A stretch of DNA of 64,000 nt from Bacillota bacterium (GTDB lineage Bacteria; Bacillota; Sulfobacillia; JAJZYS01; JAJYTV01). The stretch lies in contig JAJYSZ010000003.1 of NCBI GenBank assembly GCA_021793315.1, forward strand, positions 1 through 64,000, read 5' to 3'. A program made the position numbers and the translations under genes. Under the pieces are notes generated by a model. That model worked only from the letters and a program-made list of their open reading frames with translations, was not told the DNA's origin and searched no databases. This document shows positions 5,419 to 55,382 of this stretch, piece after piece. Numbering within the stretch: position 1 is the stretch's first letter; each line of letters starts with the position of its first letter.

Positions 5419-6645
5419 TTGAGTCAGGCGGCTGCGGTGCTGCCTAAGGAACGGCTTGATTTCCGGCGCACCTTCCTGCTGGGATTCGGCATGTTCTCGA
5501 TCTCGATCGCAAGTGCACTGTACAACGCCTACGTGCCGCTATTCCTGCGGCACTATCTCACCAGCGTCGGCCTCATCGGTGCGATCGTGGCCTTCCGCTC
5601 CCTTTCCGGACTCATCCTGAACCTCTACTTCGCTGCCCGCTCCGACCGCACCTGGACCCGCCAAGGCCGACGCATGCCCTACATCGTCATCGGCATGCCG
5701 ATCGCCGGTGTGCTCTTTCTGATGTTTCCCTGGCAGTTCGGCGCCGTCTTCCTTGTCGTGATCGACATCGTCTACGCTTTTTCGTCCAATATTTTCTACG
5801 CCCCGACCATAGCCCTGATGCCGGACATCACGCCGGCATCGCTGCGCAGCCAGGCCAACGGCGTCATCAACCTGCTGGCGGGCATCGGGGCCCTGCTCGC
5901 GTTCTTCGGCGGGCCGATCCTCTACGGCGTCTCCCGCGACCTGCCCTTTCTCGTGGTAGGTCTCCTGTTTTTCGTCATCCCGGCGCTGATGCGCTGGGGC
6001 ATCCGCGAGCCCGCGGACATTCCCCGCTCGGAGTCGGTCGGGCTCGTCCACCTCTGGCGGGCGGCTGTGGAGGTGTGGCAGAACGCGGACCGCACAGGCG
6101 TCTATCTCCTGCTCGCCATTTTCTTCTGGACAGCGGGCGAGAGTTCTGTCGACACCTTTTTCGTCACCTACGGTGTCTATCATCTGCACATGACATCGGG
6201 CACCGCCGTGATCACCATCGGCATCTTCGCCGTCGCCTACCTGCTGGGCGCGTACCCGAGCGGGGTCCTCTCCGGCAAGATCGGACGCAAGCTCACGTTG
6301 CAGATCGGCGCTCTTGTGCTCGGGATAGCGTTCCTCGCCATCCCCCTCCTGCCGAGCCTTCTCATGCTGCGCGCCGTGGCCTTCGTCGGTGGACTCGGCT
6401 GGGCACTGGTCAACATCAACGGTTACCCCTGGGTGACAGACCTCACCAAGACCAAGATGGGAGCCTACACCGGTCTCTACATCCTCGCGACGGGACTTGC
6501 CACCGTCGCGGCGCAGCCTCTCATCGGGCTCGCGATGGACCATCTCGGCTACCAGATGCTCTTCTACATCGCCGGCCCGGCCTGCCTGATCGCCCTCGGG
6601 CTGCTGTTCGGGACAGGCAGGCCTCAGGTGCGCGCCGCGAAGTAG
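5419..6645 (+). CDS. MFS transporter
   Basis: 12-TM type protein, FLLGFGMFSISIASALYNAYVPLFL; divergent from alpha-mannosidase; start codon uncertain (TTG 5419 or GTG 5377). Confidence 0.85.
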   Translation: MSQAAAVLPKERLDFRRTFLLGFGMFSISIASALYNAYVPLFLRHYLTSVGLIGAIVAFRSLSGLILNLYFAARSDRTWTRQGRRMPYIVIGMPIAGVLFLMFPWQFGAVFLVVIDIVYAFSSNIFYAPTIALMPDITPASLRSQANGVINLLAGIGALLAFFGGPILYGVSRDLPFLVVGLLFFVIPALMRWGIREPADIPRSESVGLVHLWRAAVEVWQNADRTGVYLLLAIFFWTAGESSVDTFFVTYGVYHLHMTSGTAVITIGIFAVAYLLGAYPSGVLSGKIGRKLTLQIGALVLGIAFLAIPLLPSLLMLRAVAFVGGLGWALVNINGYPWVTDLTKTKMGAYTGLYILATGLATVAAQPLIGLAMDHLGYQMLFYIAGPACLIALGLLFGTGRPQVRAAK

Positions 6646-7898
6646 ATGGGGTTCGAAAAGGCAGCCGGAAGTTCGTAGCGTACCTCTTCGAACCAGCGCC
6701 AGAGTTCGGCCCGCCAGAAGGAACGGCCGTCGCGCAGGAAATTCAGGTGGAGCTCGCCGCTTTCGAGCACCGATTCCTGCTCGAGGCCGCGCTCGCTGAA
6801 AAGCCGCAGGCGATCCCCAGCGCGGGCGGTCGACCTGATCTCGAGCTGCTCGGGACTGCCTGCGGGCACGACGTCTCCCTGCATCGACGACCCGCAGCGG
6901 AGGTCAAGCAGCGGCCCCTCAGGCGCCACGCTCAGGGCGACGTGCCCTTGGCGCAGGGCGGCCAGCACGCCGTCTGCCGTGGGGCTGTCCGTGCGCACCC
7001 AGTTCGTCGGCATGCCGTAGCGGACGAACGGATGCGGGACATGGCGATCGCTGCCGCCGATCGCGGGCAGACGACGCCCGCCTGCAAGCTGCTGCTGCCA
7101 CCAGGCGAGCGCCGCTTGGTTGCACGGCCGCCAAGGGCCGTTCCAGAGCTCGACGGCGTCCATCGGCAGGTCAAGCCCCCAGCCCCAGGCACAACCCTTG
7201 CAGCTGTCGTCGAAGGGATGGCTGACGGAGACGAATGCGCCATGCGCTCGCGCCTCCTCGATGCCTCTCAGGGCTTCTTCCGCGCTTTGCACGCGGAAGT
7301 CGCGCAACGGACGGTCGCTGCCGAGCAGGTTGCAGTGCCCCTCCAGAGTCGTCCATTCCATGCCCTGGATCGCGAACACGTCCGGGCGCACCGGGAAGGC
7401 CTGGGCGGCCGTCGCGGTGTTGTGGTCCGTGAGGGCGACGAAGTCGAGGCCGAGATCGGCGATGGCATCGGCCACCTGCCAGGGGGCATCAGCGCCGTCG
7501 CTGTGGGTGGTGTGAACGTGCAGTTCGCCGCGCAGCCAGCGGGGTGCCGCGGGGAGGTAGCGCACGCGGACAGTGACGTCGCACGCGGGCGACGTCACCT
7601 GGTAGGCACCGAGGAGAACCGCCCAGCGACCGGCCTGAAGCGCACCGGGGCGATAGCCGGGCGTCGCACGGGCGAGCCCGATGACCGCCTCGCGCCTGGC
7701 TCCGCCGCTCCAGCCGCGCACGCCTTGGGGATCGGCCACGCCGAAGTCGATCACCGTAGCCTTGGGCCCCTCGACCTCAATGCAGATCTGCAGTTCTGCC
7801 GCGTCGGCGGGACAGTCGAACGGCAGTTCGAGATAGCCGCCCTCAGCGGAACTGTCGACGTGATAACGCTGTTCGAAAAGATGGCGCCAATCCTGCAC
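6624..7898 (-). CDS. CehA/McbA-type PHP-domain metallohydrolase
   Basis: RGELHVHTTHSDG, DFVALTDHNT, GMEWTT, GSDRH motifs. Confidence 0.88.
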   Translation of the reverse strand: MQDWRHLFEQRYHVDSSAEGGYLELPFDCPADAAELQICIEVEGPKATVIDFGVADPQGVRGWSGGARREAVIGLARATPGYRPGALQAGRWAVLLGAYQVTSPACDVTVRVRYLPAAPRWLRGELHVHTTHSDGADAPWQVADAIADLGLDFVALTDHNTATAAQAFPVRPDVFAIQGMEWTTLEGHCNLLGSDRPLRDFRVQSAEEALRGIEEARAHGAFVSVSHPFDDSCKGCAWGWGLDLPMDAVELWNGPWRPCNQAALAWWQQQLAGGRRLPAIGGSDRHVPHPFVRYGMPTNWVRTDSPTADGVLAALRQGHVALSVAPEGPLLDLRCGSSMQGDVVPAGSPEQLEIRSTARAGDRLRLFSERGLEQESVLESGELHLNFLRDGRSFWRAELWRWFEEVRYELPAAFSNPIYFAART

Positions 7899-8065
7899 TG
7901 GAAAGCCCCCTTGCCGTCCCGCCCTAGCTTCAAGGCGGTTCCCCGCCAGTCCTGCGCCAAGGGTGGGGCGACTCTGGCCAGGGAATCGCGGGCGTCAGCG
8001 AGAAGTGGTCAGGAGCGAAGCCGGCGACAAAGCGATGTCAGAGGACAGGAGCGTGAACCAAGCCA

Positions 8066-23755: not shown

Positions 23756-25141
23756 CTAGTGCGAGTGCTGCACCCTGGCCGTGCTGGCGGCCTGAGTCTG
23801 TCCGCGGCCCACCACCGACCAGATGGCGAGCAGGGCGCCGATCACGACGACCACGAAGCCGATCGTGGTGATGACGAACGAGACGCCATGACTGGCCTGG
23901 GAGACGAAGATGTAGAGCATGCCGCCTATGAAAGAGACGAACGCTCCGGCGAGCAGCGTCCAGGTGGCACTGCGCTTGAGGCCCTCGTCGATGGCGAGCC
24001 ACTTGAGGGCCAGCAGTACGGTGAGGATCGCTGGCAGCAGGAAGAAGGCGAAGTCCTGGTGGAACCAGGTGAATACGGAGTCGGCGGCCGAGCCGGGCGC
24101 ACCCGTGGCACCGGCGCCAAAGATGTTCTCGTGGAACTCGATGTAGTAGCCGAAGCCGACCACCGTGACGAAGAGGATGGCTGTGACGAGCGCCGCGCCC
24201 CAGCGGTGCAGGGCATTCGGCAGGGCTTCCGCACCGAGGCCGATCAGAGCGAGCAGGCCGCCGCCCATCACGAAGACGCCTGTCACGAGGTCGTCGCCCG
24301 CGAGTCCGTTGACACCTCCTGGGCCGCTTGCGAAGAGCATGGGCGGCTGGGCGACCGAGAAGCCGCCTACGACGTAGACGAGCGTCATGACGATCGTGCC
24401 GATGGAGACGAGCCAGAGTCCGACCTTCATCAGCTTGCTGCCTACGCGGTCAACGCCGTAGGCAGCGCAGGTCGTGGCGATCGCCAGTGCGATGACCGCG
24501 GTCACCATCTCGTGCGAGTGCGATCCGATCAGGTTGGCCATCCAGTCCTGCCACTTCATGCCCGCAAGCGTGGCGTAGCCGCCGATGATGCCCTTCGGCC
24601 AGTCGCCGAACTCGAGCATCCAGCCTGCGATGTGTCCCATGATCGCCGCCAGAAGTGCGCTTATTGCGGCAAAGGCGGCCGTCCAGGCCCAGACGCGACG
24701 GGTGTCGGCGGCCCGGAAGAACAGCGCGATGCTCAGGGAAACGAGGATCTCGTCCAGGAAGAAGAAGGAGACGATCTGGATCCAGAGCGGGAACGTGTCG
24801 GTGACCGCGTGGTCGAAGATGCCGCCGATGCCGCTGAGCAATGTAGCGCCCAGCGTACCCCAGAGAATGAGATTGTGCAGGGTCTTGTTCTTGTGGGATG
24901 CGCCGAAGACGTCCATCGCGACCAGGGAAAGGAAGCCCACCATGCCGATCAGTAGGCCGTGCAGGTACATGACGTGCGCGTAGTCGATGTTCGCGCCGGC
25001 TGACGGTTCCGACTGGAATGGGGTGTTGACGAAAGCGCTGCCCAGCGCCAAGAGAAGAAGCCAGACCAGCATGCCGACGACGACACGCTTTTCCGGCGAC
25101 CAGAGCATATCGCCCAGGTTACTCTTGTCGTCCTTGGACAT
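23756..25141 (-). CDS. predicted 12-TM membrane protein, remotely heme-copper oxidase subunit I-like (paralogue 1)
   Basis: hydrophobic 461-aa ORF; shared motifs with 36923-38299: LWSPEKRVVV, MYLHGLLIGMVG, MGHIAGWxLEFGDxPK, HSHEMVxAVIAL, WFHQDFAxFLxPAIxT. Confidence 0.75.
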   Translation of the reverse strand: MSKDDKSNLGDMLWSPEKRVVVGMLVWLLLLALGSAFVNTPFQSEPSAGANIDYAHVMYLHGLLIGMVGFLSLVAMDVFGASHKNKTLHNLILWGTLGATLLSGIGGIFDHAVTDTFPLWIQIVSFFFLDEILVSLSIALFFRAADTRRVWAWTAAFAAISALLAAIMGHIAGWMLEFGDWPKGIIGGYATLAGMKWQDWMANLIGSHSHEMVTAVIALAIATTCAAYGVDRVGSKLMKVGLWLVSIGTIVMTLVYVVGGFSVAQPPMLFASGPGGVNGLAGDDLVTGVFVMGGGLLALIGLGAEALPNALHRWGAALVTAILFVTVVGFGYYIEFHENIFGAGATGAPGSAADSVFTWFHQDFAFFLLPAILTVLLALKWLAIDEGLKRSATWTLLAGAFVSFIGGMLYIFVSQASHGVSFVITTIGFVVVVIGALLAIWSVVGRGQTQAASTARVQHSH

Positions 25142-25926: not shown

Positions 25927-27276
25927 CTAGGCCGCGACGCGTCGGCTGCCCGAGAAGGCCAGATACAGCCCGCCCGCCACGATCAGACCAAGGATCCACG
26001 AGATGTCCGCGCCGCCCAACGCTTTAGCGACCGGTCCCTCATAGAGCGTGGAGTTGATGAACGGGATCTCCACCAGGACTGCCAGCACAAACGTGCCGAG
26101 TGCCAGCCAGTTGCTGCCGCCATAGCCCTGGGGCCGGTAGAAGGCCTCGGGGTCGTAGTGGCCGTGGCGCACCAGATAGAAGTCGGTCAGGTTGATGGCC
26201 GTCCACGGCACGACGAGATAGGTGAGGAAGGTGATGAAGTTCGTCAGGTCGGTATTGAAGTTGCCCGCGGCGATGATGCCCAGGACGATGCCGACGACGG
26301 CGAACGCGATGATGAGCCCGATGCGCGCGCCTGACGGCGTGCGCTCGCGCGTGCCGAAGGTGCCTCCGATGGTGTCGATCGTCAGCATGCCGCCGTAGTT
26401 GTTCAGCACATTGGCGGCGATGATCCCCAGCAGGATGATGATCATCATCAGCCAGCCGAGGCCGCCGCTGAGCTGCTGGATGACGCCTACCGAGGAGAGC
26501 TTTTCATTGACCTCCGTCAGGACCGCTCCCAGGATCATCATCCAGACCGAGGCCACCACCGTGCCCCAGAAGGTGGTGTTGAACGTGGTGCCCACGCCGA
26601 TGTCCTTGGGAAGGTAGCGGGAGTAGTCGGAGACGTAAGGGGCGTAGGTGATCTGCCAAGTGACCGCAATGGTCACACCGAGCAGGAAGGTGCCCCAGTT
26701 GAAGCCCGACATCGCCCAGGCCGACGCCGGAACGTGCCCACCCAGGCCGACCGCGAAGGTGAACACGAGGAAGGCGACCAGGAAGATGAGCGAGAGGTAG
26801 CGCTGGTAGGCGTGAATCAGGTCGTAGCCGAAGATTGCCATCGCGGCCGTGATGGCGCCGAGCACGATCGTGCCCACGGCGACCGGCAACCCCGTCAGGC
26901 TCTGCAGCGCTTCGCCGCCGAGGGCCCCGCTCAGGGCGAAGAAGCCGAGGTACATCACAACGACGAGGACAAGCGGCAGAATAGCGCCGTAGAATCCGAA
27001 CTGTGCCCGGGACTGGATCATCTGCGGCACGCCGATGATGGGTCCCTGAGCGCTGTGGTAGGCCATGAAGACGGCGCCGACAAGGTTGCCTAGAATGATG
27101 GCGATGATCGACCAGATCAGAGGCAGGCCTATGAAGACGTAGGCCGCCCCCACCGCGATGGTGGTCAGCTGCATGTTTGCCGAGAACCAGAGCGTGAAGA
27201 GGTCGCGTGCCTTGCCGTGGCGCTCCCCCTGGGGTATCGGTTCCACCGCGTGCGTCTCAGCCTGCCAGACGGACAA
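25927..27276 (-). CDS. NCS1-family permease (purine/cytosine permease-like)
   Basis: multi-TM; LFTLWFSANMQLTTIAVGA, YAPYVSDYSRYLPK. Confidence 0.88.
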   Translation of the reverse strand: MSVWQAETHAVEPIPQGERHGKARDLFTLWFSANMQLTTIAVGAAYVFIGLPLIWSIIAIILGNLVGAVFMAYHSAQGPIIGVPQMIQSRAQFGFYGAILPLVLVVVMYLGFFALSGALGGEALQSLTGLPVAVGTIVLGAITAAMAIFGYDLIHAYQRYLSLIFLVAFLVFTFAVGLGGHVPASAWAMSGFNWGTFLLGVTIAVTWQITYAPYVSDYSRYLPKDIGVGTTFNTTFWGTVVASVWMMILGAVLTEVNEKLSSVGVIQQLSGGLGWLMMIIILLGIIAANVLNNYGGMLTIDTIGGTFGTRERTPSGARIGLIIAFAVVGIVLGIIAAGNFNTDLTNFITFLTYLVVPWTAINLTDFYLVRHGHYDPEAFYRPQGYGGSNWLALGTFVLAVLVEIPFINSTLYEGPVAKALGGADISWILGLIVAGGLYLAFSGSRRVAA

Positions 27277-27761: not shown

Positions 27762-28394
27762 TCAGGCGCCGACGACAGCCTGGATCGCCTTCACGAGGTG
27801 ATCCTCGGGCACCGCGCCCTCCAGGTAGTGCCGTCCCTCGTTGATCACGGTCTTGGGGACCCCGCGCACGTTGTGCTTGCGGGTCAGGTCCCAGAATTCG
27901 TTGGCGTCGACCATCTCGGCCACGACATGCGGCGAGTACATTGCCATCTGGTGTGCCAGGCGTACAGCCCGGGGGCAGTATGGTCAGGTGGGGGTGGTGA
28001 ACACCTGCAGGTGGACATCCTCGGTCAGCGACTCGAGGTATCTCTTGGTCGCGTCGGAGAGTTCGATCTGGCCCTGCGACAGATCGATGATGTCCTGAAT
28101 CAGTACACCGAACTCGTGTCCCGCCGGGGCGCCGGTGAAGCGCGCGCGGGAGAGGCCCTCCGGTCCTTCGAGCAGGATCGACGGCAGCGACTCCTCCTCT
28201 AGACCGTACCGGCCGGCGTCAGCGACTTCAGCGCGCTGGTAGCTGAGCTTGGGGCTCAAGCCATCGAGTTCCGAGAGCAGCTGGTCGAGTTCCGACTTGC
28301 CTCCCTCGTCCACCAAGATCATCTTGATGGGGTCGCCGATCTGGGAGAACATCTCCTCGACCTGCTGCTTGACGTTTGCTGGCAGGATGGCCAA
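27762..28394 (-). CDS. candidate selenocysteine-containing protein disulfide oxidoreductase (glutaredoxin/thioredoxin-fold), UGA readthrough at 27986-27984
   Basis: two same-frame ORFs (27984-28433 and 27762-27947) joined by a single UGA; conceptual product ...HLQVFTTPT-U-PYCPRAVRLAHQMAMYSPHVVAEMVDANEFWDLTRKHNVRGVPKTVINE...; probable TTG start after GGAAGG. Confidence 0.8.
27956..27983 (-). promoter_or_regulatory. candidate bacterial SECIS element
   Basis: immediately 3' of UGA: CCATACTGCCC-CCGGGC-UGUAC-GCCUGG; 6-bp stem (one G-U), GU in apical loop starting 18 nt after UGA. Confidence 0.6.
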
Positions 28395-28483
28395 TGGCTG
28401 CACCTTCCTTTCGCTGCGGCCATGGCGTGACATGCTCCGCAGGGTTTCCGCAGGCCACGCCGCGTCCGGCGTTGGCGCTACAC

Positions 28484-28565: not shown

Positions 28566-29510
28566 TCAGTCAGGCACCGGACGACCTGCGGCCGGCCCGC
28601 CTTTGACGCGCCAGAAGAGGAACGGCTTGGCCGCATCCGAGGTCCCAAGCTGCCCGTCTTCCGTCACCCAGAGGGCTGCCAGCTGCCCGCAGGCTTGCGC
28701 GATGCCCGTGGACCCGCGGAGGAAGAGCGTCTTGCTCCAGATTTCGGTCCAGGCAGGGTCGCGGCCGATGACCGTGACGGCGAGCAGCCCCTGCCCACCC
28801 GGACGTCCGGTGCGCGGATCGATTAGGTGATGGACGGTCTGGCCGTCGTGCTGCCAGCGGTGCCTCGCGATCGAGGAGGTACAGACTGCACCGCCCTCAG
28901 GCAGCTGCAGTGCCGCGATCAGGTCCTCCGGATTGCGTGGATCCTCGATTCCGACCTGCCAGCCGCGGCCTTGCGGGCCGTCGCCCGAGGCCAGGAGGTC
29001 GCCGCCGGCGTTGAGCAGGAAGTTCCCTGTCACATGTTGCGCAATGCGGGCTCCCCAGCGCACGCCGAGCCCTTTGCCGATGCCGCCGAGGTCGAGCGCA
29101 GCGAGTGTGCGCACCTCCAACTGCCGTGGCCGGCGAACGAGCCAGCCAGGGCTGGGATCCGACACAGGGGAACTGCCGCGCGGTGCCCCCACATAGCCGT
29201 ACTCCTCAAGGCGATCCAGGATGCGCGGGTCGAAGAGACCGGCCGTGCGTCGGTAGGCGCGCAGGGAGGTCGCAAGGGCTGTGTAGAGCCTTGGTGACAC
29301 CGTCGTCCACAGGCCGGCGCGCCCGTTCAGTCGCGCGAGTTCGGCCGTCGGGCGAAAACGCGACATCGCCTGTTCGCTGGTCTCGAAGTCCGCCGCAGCC
29401 GCCCTTGCGACGGCAAGAGCCATCGCTTCGCCCACCGCGGGCAGATGCAGGCTGACCGGCGAGTGCATGGCGTTCCACTGAAAGGAGCCGTCCGATCCTT
29501 TGGTGACCAA
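28566..29510 (-). CDS. ApbE-family FAD:protein FMN transferase
   Basis: DLGGIGKGLGVRW, LLNAGGDLLASG, HHLIDPRTGRPG motifs. Confidence 0.92.
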   Translation of the reverse strand: MVTKGSDGSFQWNAMHSPVSLHLPAVGEAMALAVARAAAADFETSEQAMSRFRPTAELARLNGRAGLWTTVSPRLYTALATSLRAYRRTAGLFDPRILDRLEEYGYVGAPRGSSPVSDPSPGWLVRRPRQLEVRTLAALDLGGIGKGLGVRWGARIAQHVTGNFLLNAGGDLLASGDGPQGRGWQVGIEDPRNPEDLIAALQLPEGGAVCTSSIARHRWQHDGQTVHHLIDPRTGRPGGQGLLAVTVIGRDPAWTEIWSKTLFLRGSTGIAQACGQLAALWVTEDGQLGTSDAAKPFLFWRVKGGPAAGRPVPD

Positions 29511-29742: not shown

Positions 29743-31182
29743 CTACTTCGTCACTCGGAGGACGATGTGGAAGGCTGGCAGCGTGTCGCCCGGGTGGTCC
29801 TGCGCGTAGGTGAGCTGGGGCATGCCATACCAGTTCGGCAGGATCGAGCTTCCTTGGTACGGCGACGGGTAGATGTCGATGAAGTGGTAGCCCGGGGTGC
29901 CGATGGCGGGGATGTGGATGTGGACGTCGCCGTGGCTGTTGAAGCCGCAGGCGTAGCCCATATAGGCGTTGTCGTAGTCGACGGCGTAGATGTTGTCGTA
30001 CTGCGTCCAGCCGACGCCGGTCAGGTGGACGATGACCATGCTGCCCACCTTGGCGGGGTTCGGCGAGACGTCGATGAGCTGCGGCATGATCCGGAAGTAG
30101 GCCGACCCCACCTTCTGGCTGCCCTGCATGAGGTCGATTTCGTGCGGCGGGCCGCCAAGGTCGTCCGGGACCGTGCCCTTCCAGGTGAAGCTGCCGCTGC
30201 CGTCCGTGGTGATGGTGGCCAGCTGGGTCTGCGCCGTCTGGTACATCGAATTTGTCACGCGATTGCCCGACATGGTGTTCCAGACCACGCGCAACTGGGT
30301 GTTGGCCGGGAGCCCCTGGCCCTGCAGGGTGAACGTGCTGCCCACCACGCCGGATGTCGGCGTCACCGTCAGGTTGGTGCCGGTGGGCACGTCGGTCGCC
30401 GGTTCAGGGTCGACGACGGTCGCAGGCGTTCCCTTGGTGACCTGCACGGTCCAGTAGTAGCGCGGCAGATAGGCGTAGGGGCCTTCCTGCTCGTTCAAGT
30501 ACGGTCCTTCCACGGCGCCAGCGCGCAGGGAGATCTGGTGGGTCCCCACACCCTCCGCCCGGACCGAGAAGGTCGCCGTGCCTTCGGTGGTGACGCCGGA
30601 GATGAAGCCCATGTAGTGGTTGTCGTAGAGCACGCCGTACTCGGCGCCTTCGGCTCCGTAGGCCAGCCCCTTGACGGTGACGTGGAAGAGATCGCCCTGC
30701 GGTACGGCGGTACTCGAGATGGTGGCGCCGATCGACTCGATCACGGACCCGACCGCGACGGCCATTCCACCTGCATCGGTCAGCTCGAAGTTGTGCATAC
30801 CTCCGAAGCCGTTCGGCACGGGGAACGAGCCTGAAGCGGTGCCGGTTGCCGACGTCTCCACCGTGCCGATCTGTTCGCTGCCGTAGGAGTACACGACCGG
30901 CTTCTCCGTGCTGGTCCCGAGGTCCGCGCCGTCGATGACCCAGTGGCCGGAGACGGTCTGCCAGTCGAGCTCGAGCGTCGTGCTGGCCGGCAGGCCGGTG
31001 GCGGTCCACTGAATCTGATCGCCGGGGTAGACGTAGGGGGTGAGGACGGTCAGTTGGCCCTGCGGTACGGACGTGGCTGCGTCATCCGCGAACGCCGGCA
31101 GGCTGAATCCGGCAAGGGCGACCGCGCCAAGGAGCGTTGCTGCCAGAGCGGGGAGGAGGCTGCCGTGCAGTGTCCTGGACAT
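29743..31182 (-). CDS. secreted repeat protein with Ig-like/IPT-like domains, copy 1 (family Y)
   Basis: signal peptide; VTPTSGVVGSTFTLQGQGLP; IYAVDYDNAYMGYACGFNSHGDVHIHIPAIGTPGYHFIDIYPSPY; paralogous to 33347-34798. Confidence 0.8.
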   Translation of the reverse strand: MSRTLHGSLLPALAATLLGAVALAGFSLPAFADDAATSVPQGQLTVLTPYVYPGDQIQWTATGLPASTTLELDWQTVSGHWVIDGADLGTSTEKPVVYSYGSEQIGTVETSATGTASGSFPVPNGFGGMHNFELTDAGGMAVAVGSVIESIGATISSTAVPQGDLFHVTVKGLAYGAEGAEYGVLYDNHYMGFISGVTTEGTATFSVRAEGVGTHQISLRAGAVEGPYLNEQEGPYAYLPRYYWTVQVTKGTPATVVDPEPATDVPTGTNLTVTPTSGVVGSTFTLQGQGLPANTQLRVVWNTMSGNRVTNSMYQTAQTQLATITTDGSGSFTWKGTVPDDLGGPPHEIDLMQGSQKVGSAYFRIMPQLIDVSPNPAKVGSMVIVHLTGVGWTQYDNIYAVDYDNAYMGYACGFNSHGDVHIHIPAIGTPGYHFIDIYPSPYQGSSILPNWYGMPQLTYAQDHPGDTLPAFHIVLRVTK

Positions 31183-31185
31183 GGC

Positions 31186-31998
31186 TTACTGCAGTTGGAA
31201 CGCGAGCGAGGTGCCGGTGCCGGTGTTCGGCGGCGCCACCTTGTCTTGGGCGTTGACCTGGACGACGTAGAGACCAGCCTTGAGCCCTGACATCGACACG
31301 TTGCCCAGCCAGGCCTTCTTGGCCGCGTTGTAGCGCAGCGGGACGCTCCGGGCGACGATCTGCTGGCCCTTGGCGTTGATGTTGCCCTCGAGGCCGATGT
31401 TAGCCGTGACCTTGCCGGCGGTCATCGGCGACAGGGTGGTCTTGCCCTTCGCGACCAGGGCAAGGTTGACGCCCGCGGTGATCGGCAAGGACTTCACGGT
31501 CTTGCCGACGACGGTGGCGGACTTCGCGGCGTTGCCCACCTTGACGTTCACCGCGTAGCTGGCGGGGACGATCATCAGTTCGGACGGTGCGACCATGAAC
31601 TGCGGCTGGAAGCCGCCGCTGAGGCTGCCGTCCGTCGCGGTGACCGACCACTGGATCGTGCCGGTCGGTGTGTTGAGACCCTCGTGCCAGGCCGCCGTGA
31701 AGAAGCCGTCGTCCGTGTTGTAGATGGCGGGGTACGTCTTGCCGCCCTTCACGTAGACGGTCACTTTGGCGCTCTTGTCCTGTTTCCCGTCCTTGAGCAC
31801 GTTGATGCGCCAGACGACGACGTCGACCCCGCGGTGGAACACATTTGTCTGCAGGCAGCCGACGTTTGTGACGGTGTCGGCGTAGACCATGAGACCGTCA
31901 TTGGTCGATGCGGCAAATGCGGGGGAAGCCGTCGCGGCCAGCATGGTCGCTGCACCAGCCAAGCCTACCAAAGCGGCAAGGTTCCTGCGAAGTGACAT
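31186..31998 (-). CDS. secreted protein, copy 1 (family X)
   Basis: signal peptide; GCLQTNVFHRGVDVVVWRINVLKDGKQDK; paralogous to 34800-35609; 3 nt upstream of family Y start. Confidence 0.8.
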   Translation of the reverse strand: MSLRRNLAALVGLAGAATMLAATASPAFAASTNDGLMVYADTVTNVGCLQTNVFHRGVDVVVWRINVLKDGKQDKSAKVTVYVKGGKTYPAIYNTDDGFFTAAWHEGLNTPTGTIQWSVTATDGSLSGGFQPQFMVAPSELMIVPASYAVNVKVGNAAKSATVVGKTVKSLPITAGVNLALVAKGKTTLSPMTAGKVTANIGLEGNINAKGQQIVARSVPLRYNAAKKAWLGNVSMSGLKAGLYVVQVNAQDKVAPPNTGTGTSLAFQLQ

Positions 31999-32234
31999 CT
32001 CTCGAACCCTCCTTGCACTGTCAGGACGGCGGTGCTGTGCACAGGTTCCGGCGGGTACACCTTGCCTTTGGGGGCCTGCGCAGGGGCGGGCGGGTATTCG
32101 GCGCCGGGCGGGGGAGCGCGCCACGCTGCCGAAACACGGAAGAATCCGCAGCCACCTCCGGGGCTCGAAGTTGAGGCGCCGCTACACCCTTGGATCACCG
32201 CACCATCCCATGAACATCTCACCGCTGCGCGGGT

Positions 32235-32250
32235 TGTGAAACAATGCACA
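32235..32250 (-). promoter_or_regulatory. CRP-like operator upstream of X1-Y1
   Basis: TGTGA-AACAAT-GCACA. Confidence 0.6.
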
Positions 32251-32575
32251 TGTGGACGCACTAGAGCGTTTCAAGAGGCCGGGAAAGGTCGGCGCATGGA
32301 AACAGGTGGCATGCCCCATGCAGACGCACCGCCGGCAGGGCGACCCTGCCGCCAAGAGACCGCGACAGGGGTCGTCCGGCCGCCGCCGACGAACGGCGTG
32401 GCCATCAGGCCTTGGGAACTGCGAGCAGGGGACAGCTCTCGTGGCCCGTCGCCTGCCAGGTGGGGGACTTCTCCCGCCTCGCAGATGTGCCGCTGCAGCA
32501 GGCAAGCGCACCTCCCGAGGAGATGCGCTTGCGTCTTCGCTTGTCGCCAGGGCCACCTGAATGCGGATCAGCCAA

Positions 32576-33241
32576 CTAGCCTGACGCACCGCTGCTGGCG
32601 TGCACGGCGGGCTTGACCGAACCGCGCACGAGCATGTAGCCGCGACGCAGGTGGAAGCCCTTCGGCAGGGCACAGATCTGGGCTGCGGTGTAGCCGGCAT
32701 TGGCTGGCTCGACCCCGACCAGCTTGCACCCGTTGAGCCATGGGGCCTTCAGCTGTTCGCCAGCGACCTTGCCGCCGGCGGACAGTAGCCGCGTCTCCTT
32801 GACCTTGGCGGCGCCGACCACGCGGTATTTGCCCGCCGGCGCAATGGCGAAGGTCAAGGTGATGAGGATCTCGTCCAGGAAGAACAACGAGAGGATCCGC
32901 AGCCAGAGAAGGAACGTGTCGCCGATGCTGTGATCGAAGATGCCGCTGAAGAGCCCGGCACCCAGCGTGCCCCAGAGCACCAGGTTGTGAGCCGTGCGGC
33001 TCTTGTGGCCGGCCCCGAAGACGTCCATCGCAATAAGTCCCACCATACCGATCAGGAGACCGTGCAGGTACATCGCGTGGGCGTAATCGGGCGCCATGCC
33101 CTGGTGCTGGTCGAAGAACGGCGTCGCCACGAAGGCGCTGCCGAGCGCCAGCAGCGTCAGCCAGACGAGCATGGCCACGATGACGCGCTGTTCGGGCGAT
33201 CAGAGCGTTTTTCCGGGACTCTTCTCGCCGTGATCCCACAT
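32576..33241 (-). pseudogene. chimeric remnant: N-terminal half of 12-TM protein fused to C-terminus of small secreted protein; in-frame UGA at 33202-33200
   Basis: N-part matches MLxWLxLLALGSAFVxTPFxDQ...FFLDEILI of 36923-38299; C-part GCKLVGVEPANAGYTAAQICALPKGFHLRRGYMLVRGSVKP matches 36427-36831; TGA replaces the Trp of LWSPEKR. Confidence 0.8.
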
Positions 33242-33276
33242 GGACGCTCCGCCTTAGACGGGGGGGTGCCCCGGAT

Positions 33277-33321
33277 GGGGAGAAGCGGAAGTCCAGCCTT
33301 GGCCGTACTCCCGCTTCTCCC
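33277..33321 (-). terminator. terminator of secreted Ig-like protein gene 2
   Basis: GGGAGAAGCGG...CCGCTTCTCCC. Confidence 0.6.
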
Positions 33322-33346
33322 GGAGTGCCTGCGAATGCGGGGCCGC

Positions 33347-34798
33347 CTACCTGACCACCTTGATGACGAGGTGGAACGCGGGCAGGGTGTCCCCAGGATG
33401 GTCCTTCGCGTACGTCAGCTGGGGCATGCCCCACCAGTTGGGAAACACGCTGGTGCCCATGTACGGCGAGGGATAGATGTCGATGAAGTGGTAGCCGGGA
33501 GCTCCCACGGCGGGAATCTGGATGTGGACGTCGCCATGGCTGTTGAAGCCGCATGCGTAGCCCATGAACGCGTTGTCGTAGTCCACGGCGTAGATGTTGT
33601 CGTAATCGGTCCAGCCGACGCCGGTCAGGTGTACGGTCATCAGGCTGCCCTGCCTGGCCGGGTTCGGCGATACGCTGAGGAACTGCGGCATGATGCGATA
33701 CTGCGCCGACCCGAGGACGCTTTGGTTCTGGTCCACGAGGTCGATCTCATGCGGCGGGCCGCCGAGGTCATTCGGCACCGTGCCCTTCCAGGTGAAGGCG
33801 CCGCTCGCGTCGGTCGTGACGGTGGCGAGCGCGATCTGGGCCGACTGGTACATCGACGACGTGACGCGGTTGCCGGACTGGGTGTTCCACACGACCTGCA
33901 GGGTCTCGTCGGCCGGAAGACCGCGACCCTGCAGCGTGATCGCGCTGCCGACGACGCCGGATGTCGGCGTCACGGTCAGGTTTGTTCCTGCCGGCAGCGT
34001 GACCTTGGGCTCGGGGTCCACGATGGTCTTCGGCGTCGCGGCGGTCACGCGGACGTTCCAGTAGTAGCGCGGGTTGAGCGGGTATGGGCTCTCCTCCTGG
34101 TTGAGGTATGGCCCCCAGACGCCTGCGCCCCGCAGGGAGATCTGATGGTTGCCGACGCCCTCGGCGCGCACCTCGAAGTTCGCGGTGCCGTTGGTGCTCA
34201 CCGCAGAAATGAACCCCATGTACTTGTCGTCGTAGAGGACGCCGTAGTCGGACGTGTAGGGGGTGTAGGCAAGCCCGAGCACCTGGATGTGGAAGAAGCC
34301 GCCCTGCGGCTCCGTTGTTTGGGCGATGGTAGCCGACGGCCACTCGGCGACGCTGCCGACCGCCTCTGCCGTTCCATCTGCGTCCGCCAGCTGGAAGTTG
34401 TGCGTACCGCCGAAACCGGCGGGCACCGGGAACGATCCCGATGCCGTGCCGGCCGCGGACGTCTGCACGGTTTCGATCTGCGTGCTGCTGAAGGTGTAGC
34501 TCGCCGGCTTCTCGGTACTCGTACCGAGATTGTCGCCATCGACTACCCAGTGACCGCTGACGGACTGCCAGTCCAGGTCGAGCGTTGCGTTCGGGGTCAG
34601 GCCCGTCGCAGTCCACCTGATCGCGTCGCCGGGGTAGACGTTCGGCGTGAGCACGGTGATCTGTCCGTTGGCGGAAGGGGTGCTCGTGGCGGAGCCGCCG
34701 TCTGCGAGAGCGGGCGAGCTGAAGCCGGCTACCGTAACGCCAGCGAGGGCGATGAGGGCCAGGGACCGCAGGCAAGTCCGAACAAACGCTCGTGACAT
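33347..34798 (-). CDS. secreted repeat protein with Ig-like/IPT-like domains, copy 2 (family Y)
   Basis: same architecture as 29743-31182 along full length. Confidence 0.8.
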   Translation of the reverse strand: MSRAFVRTCLRSLALIALAGVTVAGFSSPALADGGSATSTPSANGQITVLTPNVYPGDAIRWTATGLTPNATLDLDWQSVSGHWVVDGDNLGTSTEKPASYTFSSTQIETVQTSAAGTASGSFPVPAGFGGTHNFQLADADGTAEAVGSVAEWPSATIAQTTEPQGGFFHIQVLGLAYTPYTSDYGVLYDDKYMGFISAVSTNGTANFEVRAEGVGNHQISLRGAGVWGPYLNQEESPYPLNPRYYWNVRVTAATPKTIVDPEPKVTLPAGTNLTVTPTSGVVGSAITLQGRGLPADETLQVVWNTQSGNRVTSSMYQSAQIALATVTTDASGAFTWKGTVPNDLGGPPHEIDLVDQNQSVLGSAQYRIMPQFLSVSPNPARQGSLMTVHLTGVGWTDYDNIYAVDYDNAFMGYACGFNSHGDVHIQIPAVGAPGYHFIDIYPSPYMGTSVFPNWWGMPQLTYAKDHPGDTLPAFHLVIKVVR

Positions 34799-34799
34799 G

Positions 34800-35609
34800 T
34801 TACTGTACCGTGAAGGCGAGCGACGTGCCGGTGCCGGTGTTGGCCGGCGCGACGTGGTCCGCTGCGTTGACGTCGACGATGTAGAGGCCGGCCTTGAGGC
34901 CAGCGGTCGGGATGCTGCCGACCCAGGTCTTGCTGGATGCGTTGTAGCGCAGGGCGACCGTCTTGTTCACGATCTGCTGGCCCTTGGCGTTCACGTTGCC
35001 TTCGAGGCCGATGGCGGCCTTGACGGTGCCGGAGGTCATCGGCTTGAGCGAGATCTTGCCTTGGGACGAGGTGACGAGGTCAACTCCGGCCGTCACCGGG
35101 ATGGCCTTGACGGCCTTGCCGAAGAGCGTGACCGGCTTGGCGCCGCTGCCGACCTTGGTGTTCACGGTGTAGGTGGCCGGGACGATCATGAGTTCGGACG
35201 GTGCGACCATGAACTGCGGCTGGTACGAGCCTGTCGCGGAGCCGTCCGTCGCGGTGACGGAGTACTGGATCGTACCGGGGGCCTGGTTGATGGGGACGGG
35301 CCAGAACGCGGTGTAGAAGCCGTCCTTGGAGTTGAAGGGCGCCTTGAAGGTCTGTCCGCCCTTGACCTGTACGGTTACGGTGGCCGTCTTGTCCTGCTGG
35401 CCGTTCTGGAGCACGTTGATGCGCCAGACGATGCCGTCGATGCCGCGGTGGAACACGTTGGTCTGGACGCAGCCCTGGTCCGTGACGGTGTCGGCGTAGA
35501 CGGTGAGTCCGCCCGTCGAGGCGGCGAAGGCCGGGGTGGCGGTGGCGCCGACCATGGTAACGGCGGCGGCGAGTCCGGCAATCACACCGAGGCTCCTGCG
35601 AAAGTGCAT
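34800..35609 (-). CDS. secreted protein, copy 2 (family X)
   Basis: signal peptide; GCVQTNVFHRGIDGIVWRINVLQNGQQDK; paralogous to 31186-31998. Confidence 0.8.
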   Translation of the reverse strand: MHFRRSLGVIAGLAAAVTMVGATATPAFAASTGGLTVYADTVTDQGCVQTNVFHRGIDGIVWRINVLQNGQQDKTATVTVQVKGGQTFKAPFNSKDGFYTAFWPVPINQAPGTIQYSVTATDGSATGSYQPQFMVAPSELMIVPATYTVNTKVGSGAKPVTLFGKAVKAIPVTAGVDLVTSSQGKISLKPMTSGTVKAAIGLEGNVNAKGQQIVNKTVALRYNASSKTWVGSIPTAGLKAGLYIVDVNAADHVAPANTGTGTSLAFTVQ

Positions 35610-35943
35610 CTCGTTTCCTCCTTGGTTCGAGCGAGCTTGGGTTGGGCCGGATGTACGTGGCTCTGCCTCACGATTGAGGTGGTCTGCGGCGATCCTTCAG
35701 GCTCTGATGCCGGATCGCAGGACCATCCGCAGAAGGCGTTTCACGCGGACCGATCCATCTAGGCTGCGGGCGCCCTGCGGCGAAACGGGGGAAGCGCATT
35801 GCGCCGCCTGACACGGGCCGCGAACCTTCATCTCTCCCTCCCTCCTCCTTGCCAGGGAAGATGGTCCGGGTCGGCCTGGTGTGCGATATCAGATCGCCTC
35901 ATGCCGAGGCATCCGTCCCACAACATCACACGACACGGCACTA

Positions 35944-35959
35944 TGTGAAACAATGCACT
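35944..35959 (-). promoter_or_regulatory. CRP-like operator upstream of X2-Y2
   Basis: TGTGA-AACAAT-GCACT. Confidence 0.6.
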
Positions 35960-36360
35960 TGTGGACCCTGCTTGTGATCACAGTCCTCTTTCTCGAATGG
36001 CCTAGCCCAAGAAGCCGATGGAAACGCGAGCCATACGCCGGTTGGATGGAGGACATGCATAGGGCCCTCTTGCGCGGCAGGCCTGCGGGTGCCCAGTTGA
36101 GCGGGCGGCCCTGACCCATCGGCAATGGCCTTGCCGCTTGGTCAGCCAATGTGCCTATCTGCGGGTAGCCACGGCGCGGGAAAGGCCTCGCGATGCGCCT
36201 TGGCACCTTCTTCCGCTGTGGTAGGAAGAAGGGGGCAGGTCCCAGGGCACTGCAGCTTGGGCTCCCTTTGCTCCCTGAAGCGCCATGGCTGATGCGTACG
36301 GCAGAAGCGGGAACGAGCCGGGGGCCCATTCGGTCCCAGGGGCCGCCGACGGCGGAAAGA

Positions 36361-36394
36361 AGTCGCACCCCTTGCCCGTGCAGGGGGTGCGACT
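36361..36394 (-). terminator. terminator downstream of small secreted protein gene
   Basis: AGTCGCACCCC...GGGGTGCGACT; on minus strand followed by TTCTTTCC. Confidence 0.7.
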
Positions 36395-36426
36395 GGAAGT
36401 CCTGGGCACTTAGAGACGAGCGGGGA

Positions 36427-36831
36427 TCAACCCGACGCGCCGGAGGTGCTGTGCACCGTCGGCTTCACGGAACCGCGCACGAGCATGTAGCCGCGCCGGA
36501 GGTGGTAACCCTTGGGCAGGGCGCACATCTGCGCAGCCGTGTAGCCGGCGTTGGCCGGCCCGATCTCGACGAGCTTGCAGCCCTTCGGCAGCCAGCGGGC
36601 GGTGACCCGTGCCGCGGCTGCGCGCTTGGCGCCGGCGAAGAGGTGGGCCGTCGCGCGGCTCGAGGCAAGGCGATGGCGCGCGGGCGCGGCTTGCCGCATC
36701 GGGGTGCTGGCTGGTTGGACGCTGTGCACAGCTGGGGTGGAGGCCGCGGCAAGGCCTGGCGCCAGCGCGGCCAGCGGCAGTGAGGCGGTGGCCGACGCTG
36801 CGATGAGTGTTAGGGCACGCGAACGTTTCAT
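36427..36831 (-). CDS. small secreted protein with conserved C-terminal Cys pair (family G)
   Basis: signal peptide; GCKLVEIGPANAGYTAAQMCALPKGYHLRRGYMLVRGSVKP; GAGGA SD. Confidence 0.75.
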   Translation of the reverse strand: MKRSRALTLIAASATASLPLAALAPGLAAASTPAVHSVQPASTPMRQAAPARHRLASSRATAHLFAGAKRAAAARVTARWLPKGCKLVEIGPANAGYTAAQMCALPKGYHLRRGYMLVRGSVKPTVHSTSGASG

Positions 36832-36922
36832 GGCCCGTTCCTCCTTGGTATGGCGAGTGCTCAGGGCGCCTCTGGCATGGCGATCTGTCTGACGGCCATC
36901 CGGGCGGTTGACGTGACTCTTG

Positions 36923-38299
36923 TCAGTCCGTCCCGGACAGCACGGCCTTGTCGGGCGTTTGGGCGCCGACGCCGGGGCGTATGATGGCGCGCAGGGCCAG
37001 TACGACGCCGAGGACGATGCCGGCCAAGCCGATCGTCGTGATGACGAAGGAGACACCGTAGAGCGCAGGGGAGACGAACACGTAGAGCATTCCGCCGACG
37101 AAGCCGAGGCAGCTTCCGGCGAGCAGCGTACCGACGGATGCGCGGCGCTGGCGGGCGTCATGCGTAAAGTGCATGACCGCCAGGATGAGCGTCATGATGG
37201 CTGGGATGAGGAAGAGGGCGAAGTCCTGGTGGAACCACCCGTACACCGCGTCGTTGACTCCGCGGGGCGCCGAGGCGAGACCGTGGTTGTAGAGCGTTTC
37301 GTGCATGTAGATGTAGTAGCCCGTTATCGGAACCGTCACGAGCAGCAGGGTGCTAAGCAGCGCCGAACCCCAGCGCGTCACCGGGTCCGGCAGCCTTTCG
37401 ACGCCAAGGCCGACGAGCGCGATCAGCCCGCCGAGCATGACGCCCAGGCCCGTGACGAAGTCGTCGCCGCCGATGCCGTTCAGGCCGTGGGCGAAGAGCA
37501 CGGGCGGCTGGGCCCAGGAGAATCCCGCGACGACATAGACGAGCGTCATGGCGATCGTGCCGATCGCCGCCCACCAGAGCCCGAACCGCATCAGCTTGTT
37601 GCCGCGGGTCTGCAGGCTGAAGTAGGCGCAGAACGTCGCGACGAGCAGGGCGATCACGGCCACGACCATCTCGTGGGCGTGTGCCGATATCAGGTGGGTG
37701 AGCAGGCTTTGCCACGACTCCGCGGCCAGCGATGCGTATCCGCCGACGATGGCCTTCGGGTAGTCGCCGAACTCGAGGATCCAACCGGCGATATGCCCCA
37801 TCACCGCGGAGATGAAGCCGCTGAACGCCGCCAGGGCTGCGAGCCACGTTGCGACGAAGCGCGTTTCCACGGCGCGGAAGAAGAGCGCCAGGGTCAGGCT
37901 GATGAGGATCTCATCCAGGAAGAAGAACGAGATGATCTGCATCCAGAGAAAGAGCGTGTCCTCGATGTTGCGGTCGAAGATGCCTCCGACGCCACTGAAG
38001 AGCGCGGCGCCGAGTGTGCCCCAGAGCACGAGGTTGTGCATGGTGCGGTTCTTGTGGCCAGCACCGAAGATATCCATCGCAATCAGCGACAGCAGACCCA
38101 CCATGCCGATCAGCAGTCCGTGCAGATACATGGTGCGCGCGTAGTCGGGCGGTGCCCCCGCACGCTGGTCGACGAAGGGCGTGGAGACGAAGGCGCTGCC
38201 GAGCGCGAGCAGCGCCAGCCATATCAGCATGGCTACGACGACGCGCTTCTCGGGAGACCAGAGGGTCTCGGAAAGGCTTCGCTGGCTTCCGGTCGACAT
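36923..38299 (-). CDS. predicted 12-TM membrane protein, remotely heme-copper oxidase subunit I-like (paralogue 2)
   Basis: 458-aa paralogue of 23756-25141; GAGGAGGAGATTCC SD before ATG 38299; conserved His in TM2/5/6/9/10. Confidence 0.78.
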   Translation of the reverse strand: MSTGSQRSLSETLWSPEKRVVVAMLIWLALLALGSAFVSTPFVDQRAGAPPDYARTMYLHGLLIGMVGLLSLIAMDIFGAGHKNRTMHNLVLWGTLGAALFSGVGGIFDRNIEDTLFLWMQIISFFFLDEILISLTLALFFRAVETRFVATWLAALAAFSGFISAVMGHIAGWILEFGDYPKAIVGGYASLAAESWQSLLTHLISAHAHEMVVAVIALLVATFCAYFSLQTRGNKLMRFGLWWAAIGTIAMTLVYVVAGFSWAQPPVLFAHGLNGIGGDDFVTGLGVMLGGLIALVGLGVERLPDPVTRWGSALLSTLLLVTVPITGYYIYMHETLYNHGLASAPRGVNDAVYGWFHQDFALFLIPAIMTLILAVMHFTHDARQRRASVGTLLAGSCLGFVGGMLYVFVSPALYGVSFVITTIGLAGIVLGVVLALRAIIRPGVGAQTPDKAVLSGTD

Positions 38300-38592
38300 G
38301 GAATCTCCTCCTCGAGCGGCGGCGAGGCGGCCGCCTCCACCCCGCACGCACCTGCCCACTCCTGGAATCGACGACTGCGTCCTGCGCCTGCAGCGGGTCT
38401 CTCGCCTTACCCGCTGACACATCCAAGACGGCCGCGGCGGTAGCCGTTCCGGGGCAAGAACGCGGCTGAGAGCCCGCGCCTGCGAGGTGCCCGAGTCCTT
38501 GTCAGCAGTCCGCGACAGCGTGGTTGGACTCTTCGCAGGAGGCGCCTCGTCCCGATGACGCTCAGCCGAATACAGTGTGGGCCAGGGCACTT

Positions 38593-38608
38593 TGTGAACC
38601 AATGCACG
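38593..38608 (-). promoter_or_regulatory. CRP-like operator upstream of paralogue 2
   Basis: TGTGA-ACCAAT-GCACG. Confidence 0.55.
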
Positions 38609-54530: not shown

Positions 54531-55382
54531 CTATTCCTGGCTCTCGGCCCACCGCGATGCCCTATGCGCCCCGGGGAGGTTGAGATACGCGATGGTTGTG
54601 ATGATCAGAAAGGCCAGGTAGACGCCGACCTGCAGCACTGTCGGCGCCTGCGCGTAACCAAACAGGCTGTGCAGGATGTCGCCCAAGGGGCTCTCCTCGC
54701 TCAGCAGGGCCTGGCTGTGCCAGACGATGGTCGTCAGGACGTTGAGCCAGCCGATGGATTGGAACGACTCGATGGCGTCCGCGAGCAGGCCAGCCCCGAA
54801 GAGGAGAAGCAGCACGCCGAGCACATTGAAGAACAGGCCGAGCGGCGCTCTGCGGCCCAGACTGTACACCCACGCGCTGACGCCCAAACCCGCGAGCAGC
54901 CCGACGAAGGCGCCGAACAGCATGGGCAGGCCCTGCTGGTTTAGTGCGATCGCGAGCGTGAAGAAGGCAGTTTCGAGTCCTTCGCGGCCGACCGTGATGG
55001 CCGCGAGCAGGATCATGGCGCCGAGCGAGCCGCGCGACAGCGCGATGTCCACCTTGCGTTCGAGTTCCCCGCGGATCTGGCTGCTCTGACCTTTCATCCA
55101 GAAACTCATGTAGGTGAGCATGGCGGTAGCGATGACGTAGGTACCGCCCTCGAGAATCGCCTGGACGCGCGATCCGTCGTACTGGTGGATCAGATGATAG
55201 CTGACCATGGCGACCGCCAGGTCGAGCGCGACGGCGATGCCGACGCCAAGCCAGACGCTCGCCGTACGGTCCCTGCGGCCGATGCGGTGCAGGTATGCCA
55301 GGATGATGCCCACCACCAGGCTGGCCTCCAGCGTCTCGCGGAAAAGATGACGAATGTCGGAAGCAACCTCCGCCCCCCGCAT
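54531..55382 (-). CDS. FTR1-family iron permease
   Basis: FRETLEASLVVGIILAYL; AITVGREGLETAFF (REGLE). Confidence 0.92.
   Translation of the reverse strand: MRGAEVASDIRHLFRETLEASLVVGIILAYLHRIGRRDRTASVWLGVGIAVALDLAVAMVSYHLIHQYDGSRVQAILEGGTYVIATAMLTYMSFWMKGQSSQIRGELERKVDIALSRGSLGAMILLAAITVGREGLETAFFTLAIALNQQGLPMLFGAFVGLLAGLGVSAWVYSLGRRAPLGLFFNVLGVLLLLFGAGLLADAIESFQSIGWLNVLTTIVWHSQALLSEESPLGDILHSLFGYAQAPTVLQVGVYLAFLIITTIAYLNLPGAHRASRWAESQE

Follow-up and report, generated by a model that had tools for sequence, protein, structure and literature searches.

A candidate flavin-coupled electron-transfer module with an oxidase-fold membrane protein in a bacterium of the class Sulfobacillia

Organization of the locus

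A stretch of 64,000 nucleotides from a Bacillota bacterium of the class Sulfobacillia (assembly GCA_021793315.1, contig JAJYSZ010000003.1, positions 1 to 64,000; hereafter the window) carries a cluster for one membrane protein and three secreted protein families, which is analysed here as a candidate flavin-coupled electron-transfer module. The genes lie on the minus strand in the order M, G, X, Y. The membrane protein M (36923–38299) has 12 transmembrane (TM) helices, a predicted heme-copper-oxidase fold, and histidines in TM2, TM5 (H169), TM6 (H207 and H209), and TM10 (H357); the first ATG of its reading frame (38632) is an over-extension, and a start at 38299 agrees with the relatives. G (36427–36831) is a small secreted protein and putative carrier of flavin mononucleotide (FMN), which ends in an SGAS-G tag; the codons of the SGAS flavinylation motif, as defined in PMC8238504 and PMC12052999, occupy 36433–36444. 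X2 (34800–35609) and Y2 (33347–34798) are the first and second members of a secreted pair, Y2 having one or more putative immunoglobulin (Ig)-like domains. Further along the same strand lie a pseudogene of a second M-G (32576–33315), the duplicates X1 (31186–31998) and Y1 (29743–31182), a gene for ApbE, the FMN transferase that uses flavin adenine dinucleotide (28566–29510), and a second intact M paralogue (23756–25141), which belongs to a clade without G association. All open reading frames (ORFs) named in a first-pass annotation of the window were found in place; its parts list left out ApbE and the flavin tag of G.

The same annotation read the module as present twice in tandem. Duplication itself is well borne out, as X1 and X2 share 65% protein identity, Y1 and Y2 69%, and the G remnant and G 67%, and the two blocks align in DNA over 2.2 kb with 74% identity. 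However, the second M-G has decayed. The frame at 32576–33178, previously taken for a chimera of M and G, is part of the pseudogene and not a functional chimera: the first ~470 nt of M (33315–32847) are fused to the last 163 nt of G (32738–32576), about 1.3 kb is lost relative to the intact copy of a sister species (L096), and a TGA lies in frame at 33200–33202. The window holds one intact M-G-X-Y module and a decayed M/G with an intact X1-Y1. The duplication is older than the species, because two relatives also carry it. Genome G346 (L007/L096) has the order M-G-X-Y-M-G-X-Y with both M genes intact (91% and 75% identical to the window M), and genome G347 (L005/L094) has M-G-X-Y-X-Y, the middle M-G being lost. 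The extra membrane paralogue at 23756–25141 was also confirmed, but it does not complete the count: elsewhere in the same genome stand another M paralogue (G000:C103) and another X-Y pair (G000:C170).

Fold of the membrane protein

Profile searches with M and its relatives assigned it to no Pfam or NCBIfam family, and sequence searches found no relevant relative among solved structures. A search of the genome with the COX1 profile (PF00115) recovered canonical oxidases and did not match M. Weak Pfam matches (DUF2070, DUF6425, DUF726, and others) were under the cut-off and were disregarded, and the heme-copper membrane protein NnrS (PF05940), of which the string HAHEM is reminiscent, gave no profile match to M or its relatives at E-values up to 1–5.

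An AlphaFold2 model of M, built from 17 sequences, comprises 12 long helices (pLDDT 80.3, pTM 0.85). The comparison with oxidase and nitric oxide (NO) reductase structures that the first-pass annotation had proposed was run on this model, and oxidases came first. The best Foldseek match in the PDB was 7cub, the bo3 oxidase of E. coli (TM-score 0.63, probability 1.00), followed by yeast, plant, and mammalian aa3 oxidases, qNOR, cNOR, and bacterial oxidases, mostly at probability 0.95–1.00; the top six matches had TM-scores of 0.53–0.63. Outside the oxidases, transporters reached a probability of at most 0.38 and a designed helical repeat 0.57. On this model the relationship to the oxidases is remote, because the E-values are modest and the root-mean-square deviation is 6–7 Å. 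The earlier description of M as reminiscent of heme-copper oxidase subunit I without matching it was accurate, since no sequence family applies, while heme-copper oxidases and NO reductases make up the confident structural matches. M has the fold of these enzymes, yet falls outside subunit I of the heme-copper oxidases.

Profile comparison gave a related signal. An hhalign comparison of the M family with 28 oxidases (COX1) of the same class scored 34 (P 0.002), against 17–18 (P 0.4–0.5) for the reversed-template control. The best registers were offset by four helices, with TM5-6 of M placed on TM9-10 of the oxidase and TM2 on TM6; in the divergent M clade, the shifted register placed TM10 on oxidase TM2. 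The strongest signal paired the M TM5-6 segment GHIAGW..SHSHEM with the oxidase TM9-10 segment GGI.GV..VAHFHYV. Comparisons with single oxidase subtypes gave weak scores and registers that disagree, and with a doubled oxidase template two shifted registers scored about equally. The oxidase fold consists of three four-helix repeats, which allows a structural match in sequential order alongside a profile match in a shifted register. A circular permutation of M relative to the oxidases is suggested by these alignments and is not claimed here; the shift may reflect either a permuted ligand set or the pseudo-symmetry of the repeats.

Conserved histidines

Histidine conservation was scored across 26 M sequences. 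TM2 and TM10 each retain one histidine and TM6 retains two (S-H-x-H), the sole exception being a degenerate paralogue (M′; L071 160–1614, genome G396), which lacks the TM2, TM5, and first TM6 histidines, is kept in its module, and has a long branch in the tree. Archaea and the main clade retain the TM5 histidine (GHIAGW), whereas the divergent clade has lost it. On TM9 an E..E pattern is conserved and the histidine is not. Among the histidines listed in the first-pass annotation, those of TM2, TM6, and TM10 therefore hold family-wide, that of TM5 holds except in the divergent clade, and that of TM9 does not hold. TM7 has no conserved histidine, and the shifted register puts G/I at the HH columns of the oxidase. 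As read from the alignment, a CuB site of the known O2-reducing type is absent from M, because TM7 lacks conserved histidines. TM2 and TM10 carry conserved histidines, as noted, with the HxH on TM6 and not on TM10; the register is ambiguous through the pseudo-threefold symmetry of the fold.

The C-terminal tag of G and the ApbE clade

The target motif of ApbE is D-x-x-[S/T]-G-A-[S/T], with FMN attached to the last Ser/Thr (PMC12052999), and the shorter [S/T]GA[S/T] sufficed to find, and later prove, DUF2271 and DUF3570 as substrates (PMC8238504). The locus contains both an apbE gene and a candidate substrate with this motif, as G ends in ...H-S-T-S-G-A-S-G (family f1) or ...H-A-K-T-G-A-S-G (family f5). 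The tag is conserved in that other family (L071, L091), at about 48% identity. Terminal tags function well for flavinylation (PMC12052999). G matched no Pfam family above the cut-off and has no substrate domain of a described class (FMN_bind, DUF2271, DUF3570, Flavodoxin_4, FMN_red), and FMN_bind proteins number zero in its genome. M in turn matches no described transmembrane component of flavinylation systems (Nqr/Rnf, NapH, MsrQ, PepSY, DsbD, DUF4405). The ApbE of the window has no hydrophobic leader, and G appears to have a signal peptide.

A search of the class with the window ApbE separated a clade of 20 loci at E < 1e-65. A tagged neighbour, defined as a closed ORF within ~1.5 kb that ends in [S/T]GA[S/T] plus at most six residues, was found at 13 of the 20 loci, in families f1, f2, f5, f139, f152, and f156. 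The background was 7 tagged ORFs in 2944 (the true G counted), or 4.5% per locus, giving a binomial p of 2e-13 that is inflated by genome kinship. Other ApbE loci had a tagged neighbour once in 22, in an implausible frame (Fisher 3e-5, likewise inflated by kinship). The seven untagged loci include one contig end, one damaged copy, and three loci of the same genus as the window, whose module either is cut or has its tagged G a few kb off.

Tagged proteins other than the M-associated G are unrelated to it, and have a hydrophobic N-terminal stretch, a charged or coiled-coil-like middle, and a proline-rich tail ending in TGAS. Most of them adjoin a membrane protein resembling a 6-TM cytochrome, which at one locus was confirmed as Ferric_reduct (PF01794), a known flavinylation-associated cytochrome (PMC8238504). 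By analogy, the M of the window takes the place of the 6-TM cytochrome of these other loci. Across the class, at L155–L171 and L145–L151, a 6-TM Ferric_reduct-like protein forms a cassette with a small C-terminally TGAS-tagged protein and a leaderless ApbE, two tagged proteins being present in L155/L156; judged from its sequences, this cassette is probably a natural flavin-tag system of its own.

The X-Y pair

X stands directly before Y in at least 10 loci of five families, as detected with profiles, and the pair is mostly found without M. Its neighbours include cytochrome b and Rieske genes (L198), NrfC-NrfD (L199), and, at L193 and L201, a small membrane protein without a family (6621–7238 and 7460–8038, respectively), which has a conserved D[YF]THVMAGALWTG motif and no Pfam match. 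Over 154 genomes, with kinship uncorrected, the occurrence of Y is associated with that of M (p 3e-5) and with that of the ApbE clade (p 5e-6). Because X-Y adjoins redox genes elsewhere and co-occurs with M and the ApbE clade, it is best read, from gene context, as a pair of extracytoplasmic partners of membrane redox complexes that the M-G-ApbE module has recruited.

An AlphaFold2 model of Y is all-beta and of low confidence (pLDDT 56, pTM 0.40), and was left out of the fold search. A match of Y to neocarzinostatin/enediyne chromoproteins (25 bits against a cut-off of 86) was rejected as an assignment and does no more than hint at an Ig-like fold. The first-pass annotation had proposed a redox complex with beta-rich partners; ApbE and the flavinylation tag support the redox part, and the chromoprotein match and the low-confidence model of Y lend weak support to the beta-rich part. 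The third X-Y pair of the genome (L090 1842–6098, contig C170) is followed by a homologue of the NCS1-type permease encoded at 25927–27276 of the window.

Distribution and gene neighbourhood of M

M was found in 24–25 of the 154 genomes of the class, and in a phylum sample of 300 genomes in this genome only. Beyond the phylum, it was detected in two Actinomycetes assemblies (38–42% identity) and in archaea, where two assemblies (29%) and one more genome among 250 drawn from their phylum have it. The M tree separates an archaeal and divergent bacterial clade, the actinomycete pair, and a main clade. The G-associated M proteins of two bacterial families, f1 and f5, group together as one clade (support 100/99), apart from the stand-alone paralogues at 23756–25141 and on C103. 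This branching suggests a single origin of the M-G link, followed by inheritance or transfer.

The four divergent M homologues (L081–L084) each have next to them a gene for a CtaB-like heme O synthase (TIGR01473, E 2e-54 to 6e-61, slightly under the cut-off), and in genome G342 M comes after COX1-COX3-COX4. At two of three archaeal loci, a copper P1B ATPase and a rusticyanin-like or sulfocyanin-like cupredoxin lie within a few genes of M; the stretch read around the homologue of G573 contained neither. Many bacterial M copies have no informative neighbour, and most M homologues have no G, X, or Y nearby. The order M-G-ApbE-M′-Y recurs in one other family, f5, in which G396 has M-G-ApbE-M′ and G395 adds Y; X was absent from the stretch read. 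The proposal that the four families form a fixed unit did not survive this co-occurrence check, as M is mostly alone and X-Y is usually without M.

Proposed function and alternatives

With a confidence a little better than even, we read the locus as a flavin-coupled extracytoplasmic electron-transfer module, composed of a membrane heme protein, M, and a flavin-tagged secreted carrier, G. The hemes of M would lie in the outer half of the membrane, and G would receive FMN from ApbE on its SGAS serine. Electrons could then move by way of M and G between the quinone pool of the membrane and the exterior, either leaving from quinol to an outside acceptor or entering from an outside donor to M. The role of M is modelled on that of the 6-TM MsrQ-like heme protein (PF01794), which is thought to act in this way beside other flavinylated proteins. 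X and Y may be Ig-like partners that hold the carrier or receive it, and that organise it or the acceptor. A more specific version is put forward tentatively, at somewhat less than an even chance: that M represents an oxidase-fold branch whose ligands are rotated by one four-helix repeat (TM2 His, TM6 HxH, TM10 His, no CuB pair) and which serves, in a non-oxidase role, as electron conduit for a natural C-terminally flavin-tagged carrier, an ApbE substrate class that surveys of secreted ApbE would have missed.

Several observations weigh against the electron-transfer reading. The main weakness is the pairing of a leaderless ApbE with a secreted G, which would therefore have to be flavinylated before export or by an unknown route; a leaderless ApbE is known from K. 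pneumoniae (PMC12052999). G has a histidine at the usual Asp position of the motif, where a D-to-A change had a minor effect only (PMC12052999). The ApbE gene lies 7 kb from the intact G, beside Y1, and the genome has a second ApbE as well as c-type cytochromes. Most M homologues, two of this genome included, have no ApbE or tagged protein nearby. On the structural side, the best Foldseek E-value was 1.3e-3, narrowly above 0.001, and the hhalign probability of M against COX1 was just 4–13%.

Among the alternatives, the one that survives best, though unlikely, is that M is a catalytic terminal reductase of the heme-copper fold whose metal site is altered and whose acceptor is NO, O2, or some other compound; flavinylated G would be its electron donor in place of cytochrome c. 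The oxidase fold is consistent with this, as are the five conserved histidines of the main clade, which are enough for hemes and a second metal, the archaeal M homologues near a copper ATPase and cupredoxin, and the absence of detectable PF00034 cytochrome c from the f5 genomes with M-G-ApbE-M′-Y. However, M has no TM7 histidine pair and no HPEV-type CuB motif, the divergent clade has lost the TM5 histidine, the genome also encodes canonical oxidases, and no subunit II was seen in the locus.

It is rather improbable that the SGAS of G is not flavinylated, ApbE modifying another protein and M-G-X-Y being an unrelated envelope module. The leaderless ApbE, its position beside Y1 instead of G, and the second ApbE of the genome would fit, but the conservation of the tag across families, the recurrence of tagged proteins beside the ApbE clade in six families, and the lack of any FMN_bind protein in the genome argue for G as the substrate. 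Improbable to a slightly greater degree is a role of M as a heme or copper handling factor (in assembly, delivery, or sensing) for respiratory oxidases rather than as an electron carrier. The CtaB, COX-operon, and copper ATPase neighbours and the many M genes that stand alone speak for such a role, whereas the G-ApbE association in a well-supported clade and the cupredoxin neighbours favour electron transfer, and the structures that matched M were those of catalytic oxidases and NO reductases, not of assembly factors. That M is an ordinary secondary transporter without a conserved histidine cluster, the outcome against which the first-pass annotation had set its reading, has very little to commend it beyond the 12 helices, since oxidases come first at probability 1.00 with transporters far below, no transporter family was matched by profile, and the histidine cluster is conserved.

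Other genes in the window

A gene at 27765–28433 on the minus strand encodes a thioredoxin-fold protein disulfide oxidoreductase, in which an in-frame TGA (27984–27986) replaces the first Cys of CPYC (TPT-TGA-PYC). This TGA is conserved in the homologues from G347 and G348, and the protein is therefore likely a selenoprotein. By the look of its sequence, 54534–55382, also on the minus strand, is a candidate FTR1-type iron permease.

Relation to known systems and significance

Each known kind of system, whether the oxidases or the MsrQ, PepSY, and DUF4405 flavin systems, differs from the module in at least one defining feature, so that the module is best described as a form of flavinylation-based electron transfer whose membrane part has the oxidase fold. 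With the heme-copper oxidoreductases (PF00115; bo3, aa3, cbb3, NOR), M shares the 12-TM fold, a profile signal, and histidines at pseudo-symmetric places on TM2, TM6, and TM10; unlike them, it has no COX1 profile match, TM7 HH, or subunit II, carries its HxH on TM6 instead of TM10, and prefers registers shifted by four helices. The MsrQ-like system (PF01794 with ApbE and FMN_bind; PMC8238504) likewise combines a membrane heme protein (predicted for M), an extracytosolic flavinylated protein (predicted for G), and ApbE, and in a related genome an ApbE of this clade is found with a PF01794 protein, but M is a 12-TM oxidase-fold protein instead of a 6-TM one, G has a C-terminal tag without FMN_bind, and the ApbE is leaderless. 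DUF4405 cytochromes (PMC11334425) were also inferred as membrane cytochromes from co-localisation with apbE; M belongs to another family and has no DUF4405 match. As in the Flavin-tag method (PMC12052999), a short terminal motif would be enough for flavinylation, although that method is engineered and the tag of G is a proposed natural C-terminal tag. The rusticyanin-like and sulfocyanin-like cupredoxins of archaea resemble G as extracytoplasmic electron carriers adjoining M, and differ in being of the blue-copper type and not flavin-tagged. In a limited library, the literature search returned no paper on oxidase families with altered ligands or on links between oxidases and flavins.

The transmembrane partners described in two surveys are Nqr/Rnf-type, NapH, MsrQ, PepSY, DsbD, and DUF4405 proteins (PMC8238504, PMC11334425). 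If the proposed function is true, an oxidase-fold partner adds a class to these transmembrane partners of flavinylated proteins, and the oxidase fold can serve electron transfer without a CuB site. Orphan apbE genes remain, and the survey that listed them excluded genes without a signal peptide (PMC8238504); the pairing of a leaderless ApbE with a C-terminal TGAS tag would supply substrates for some of them.

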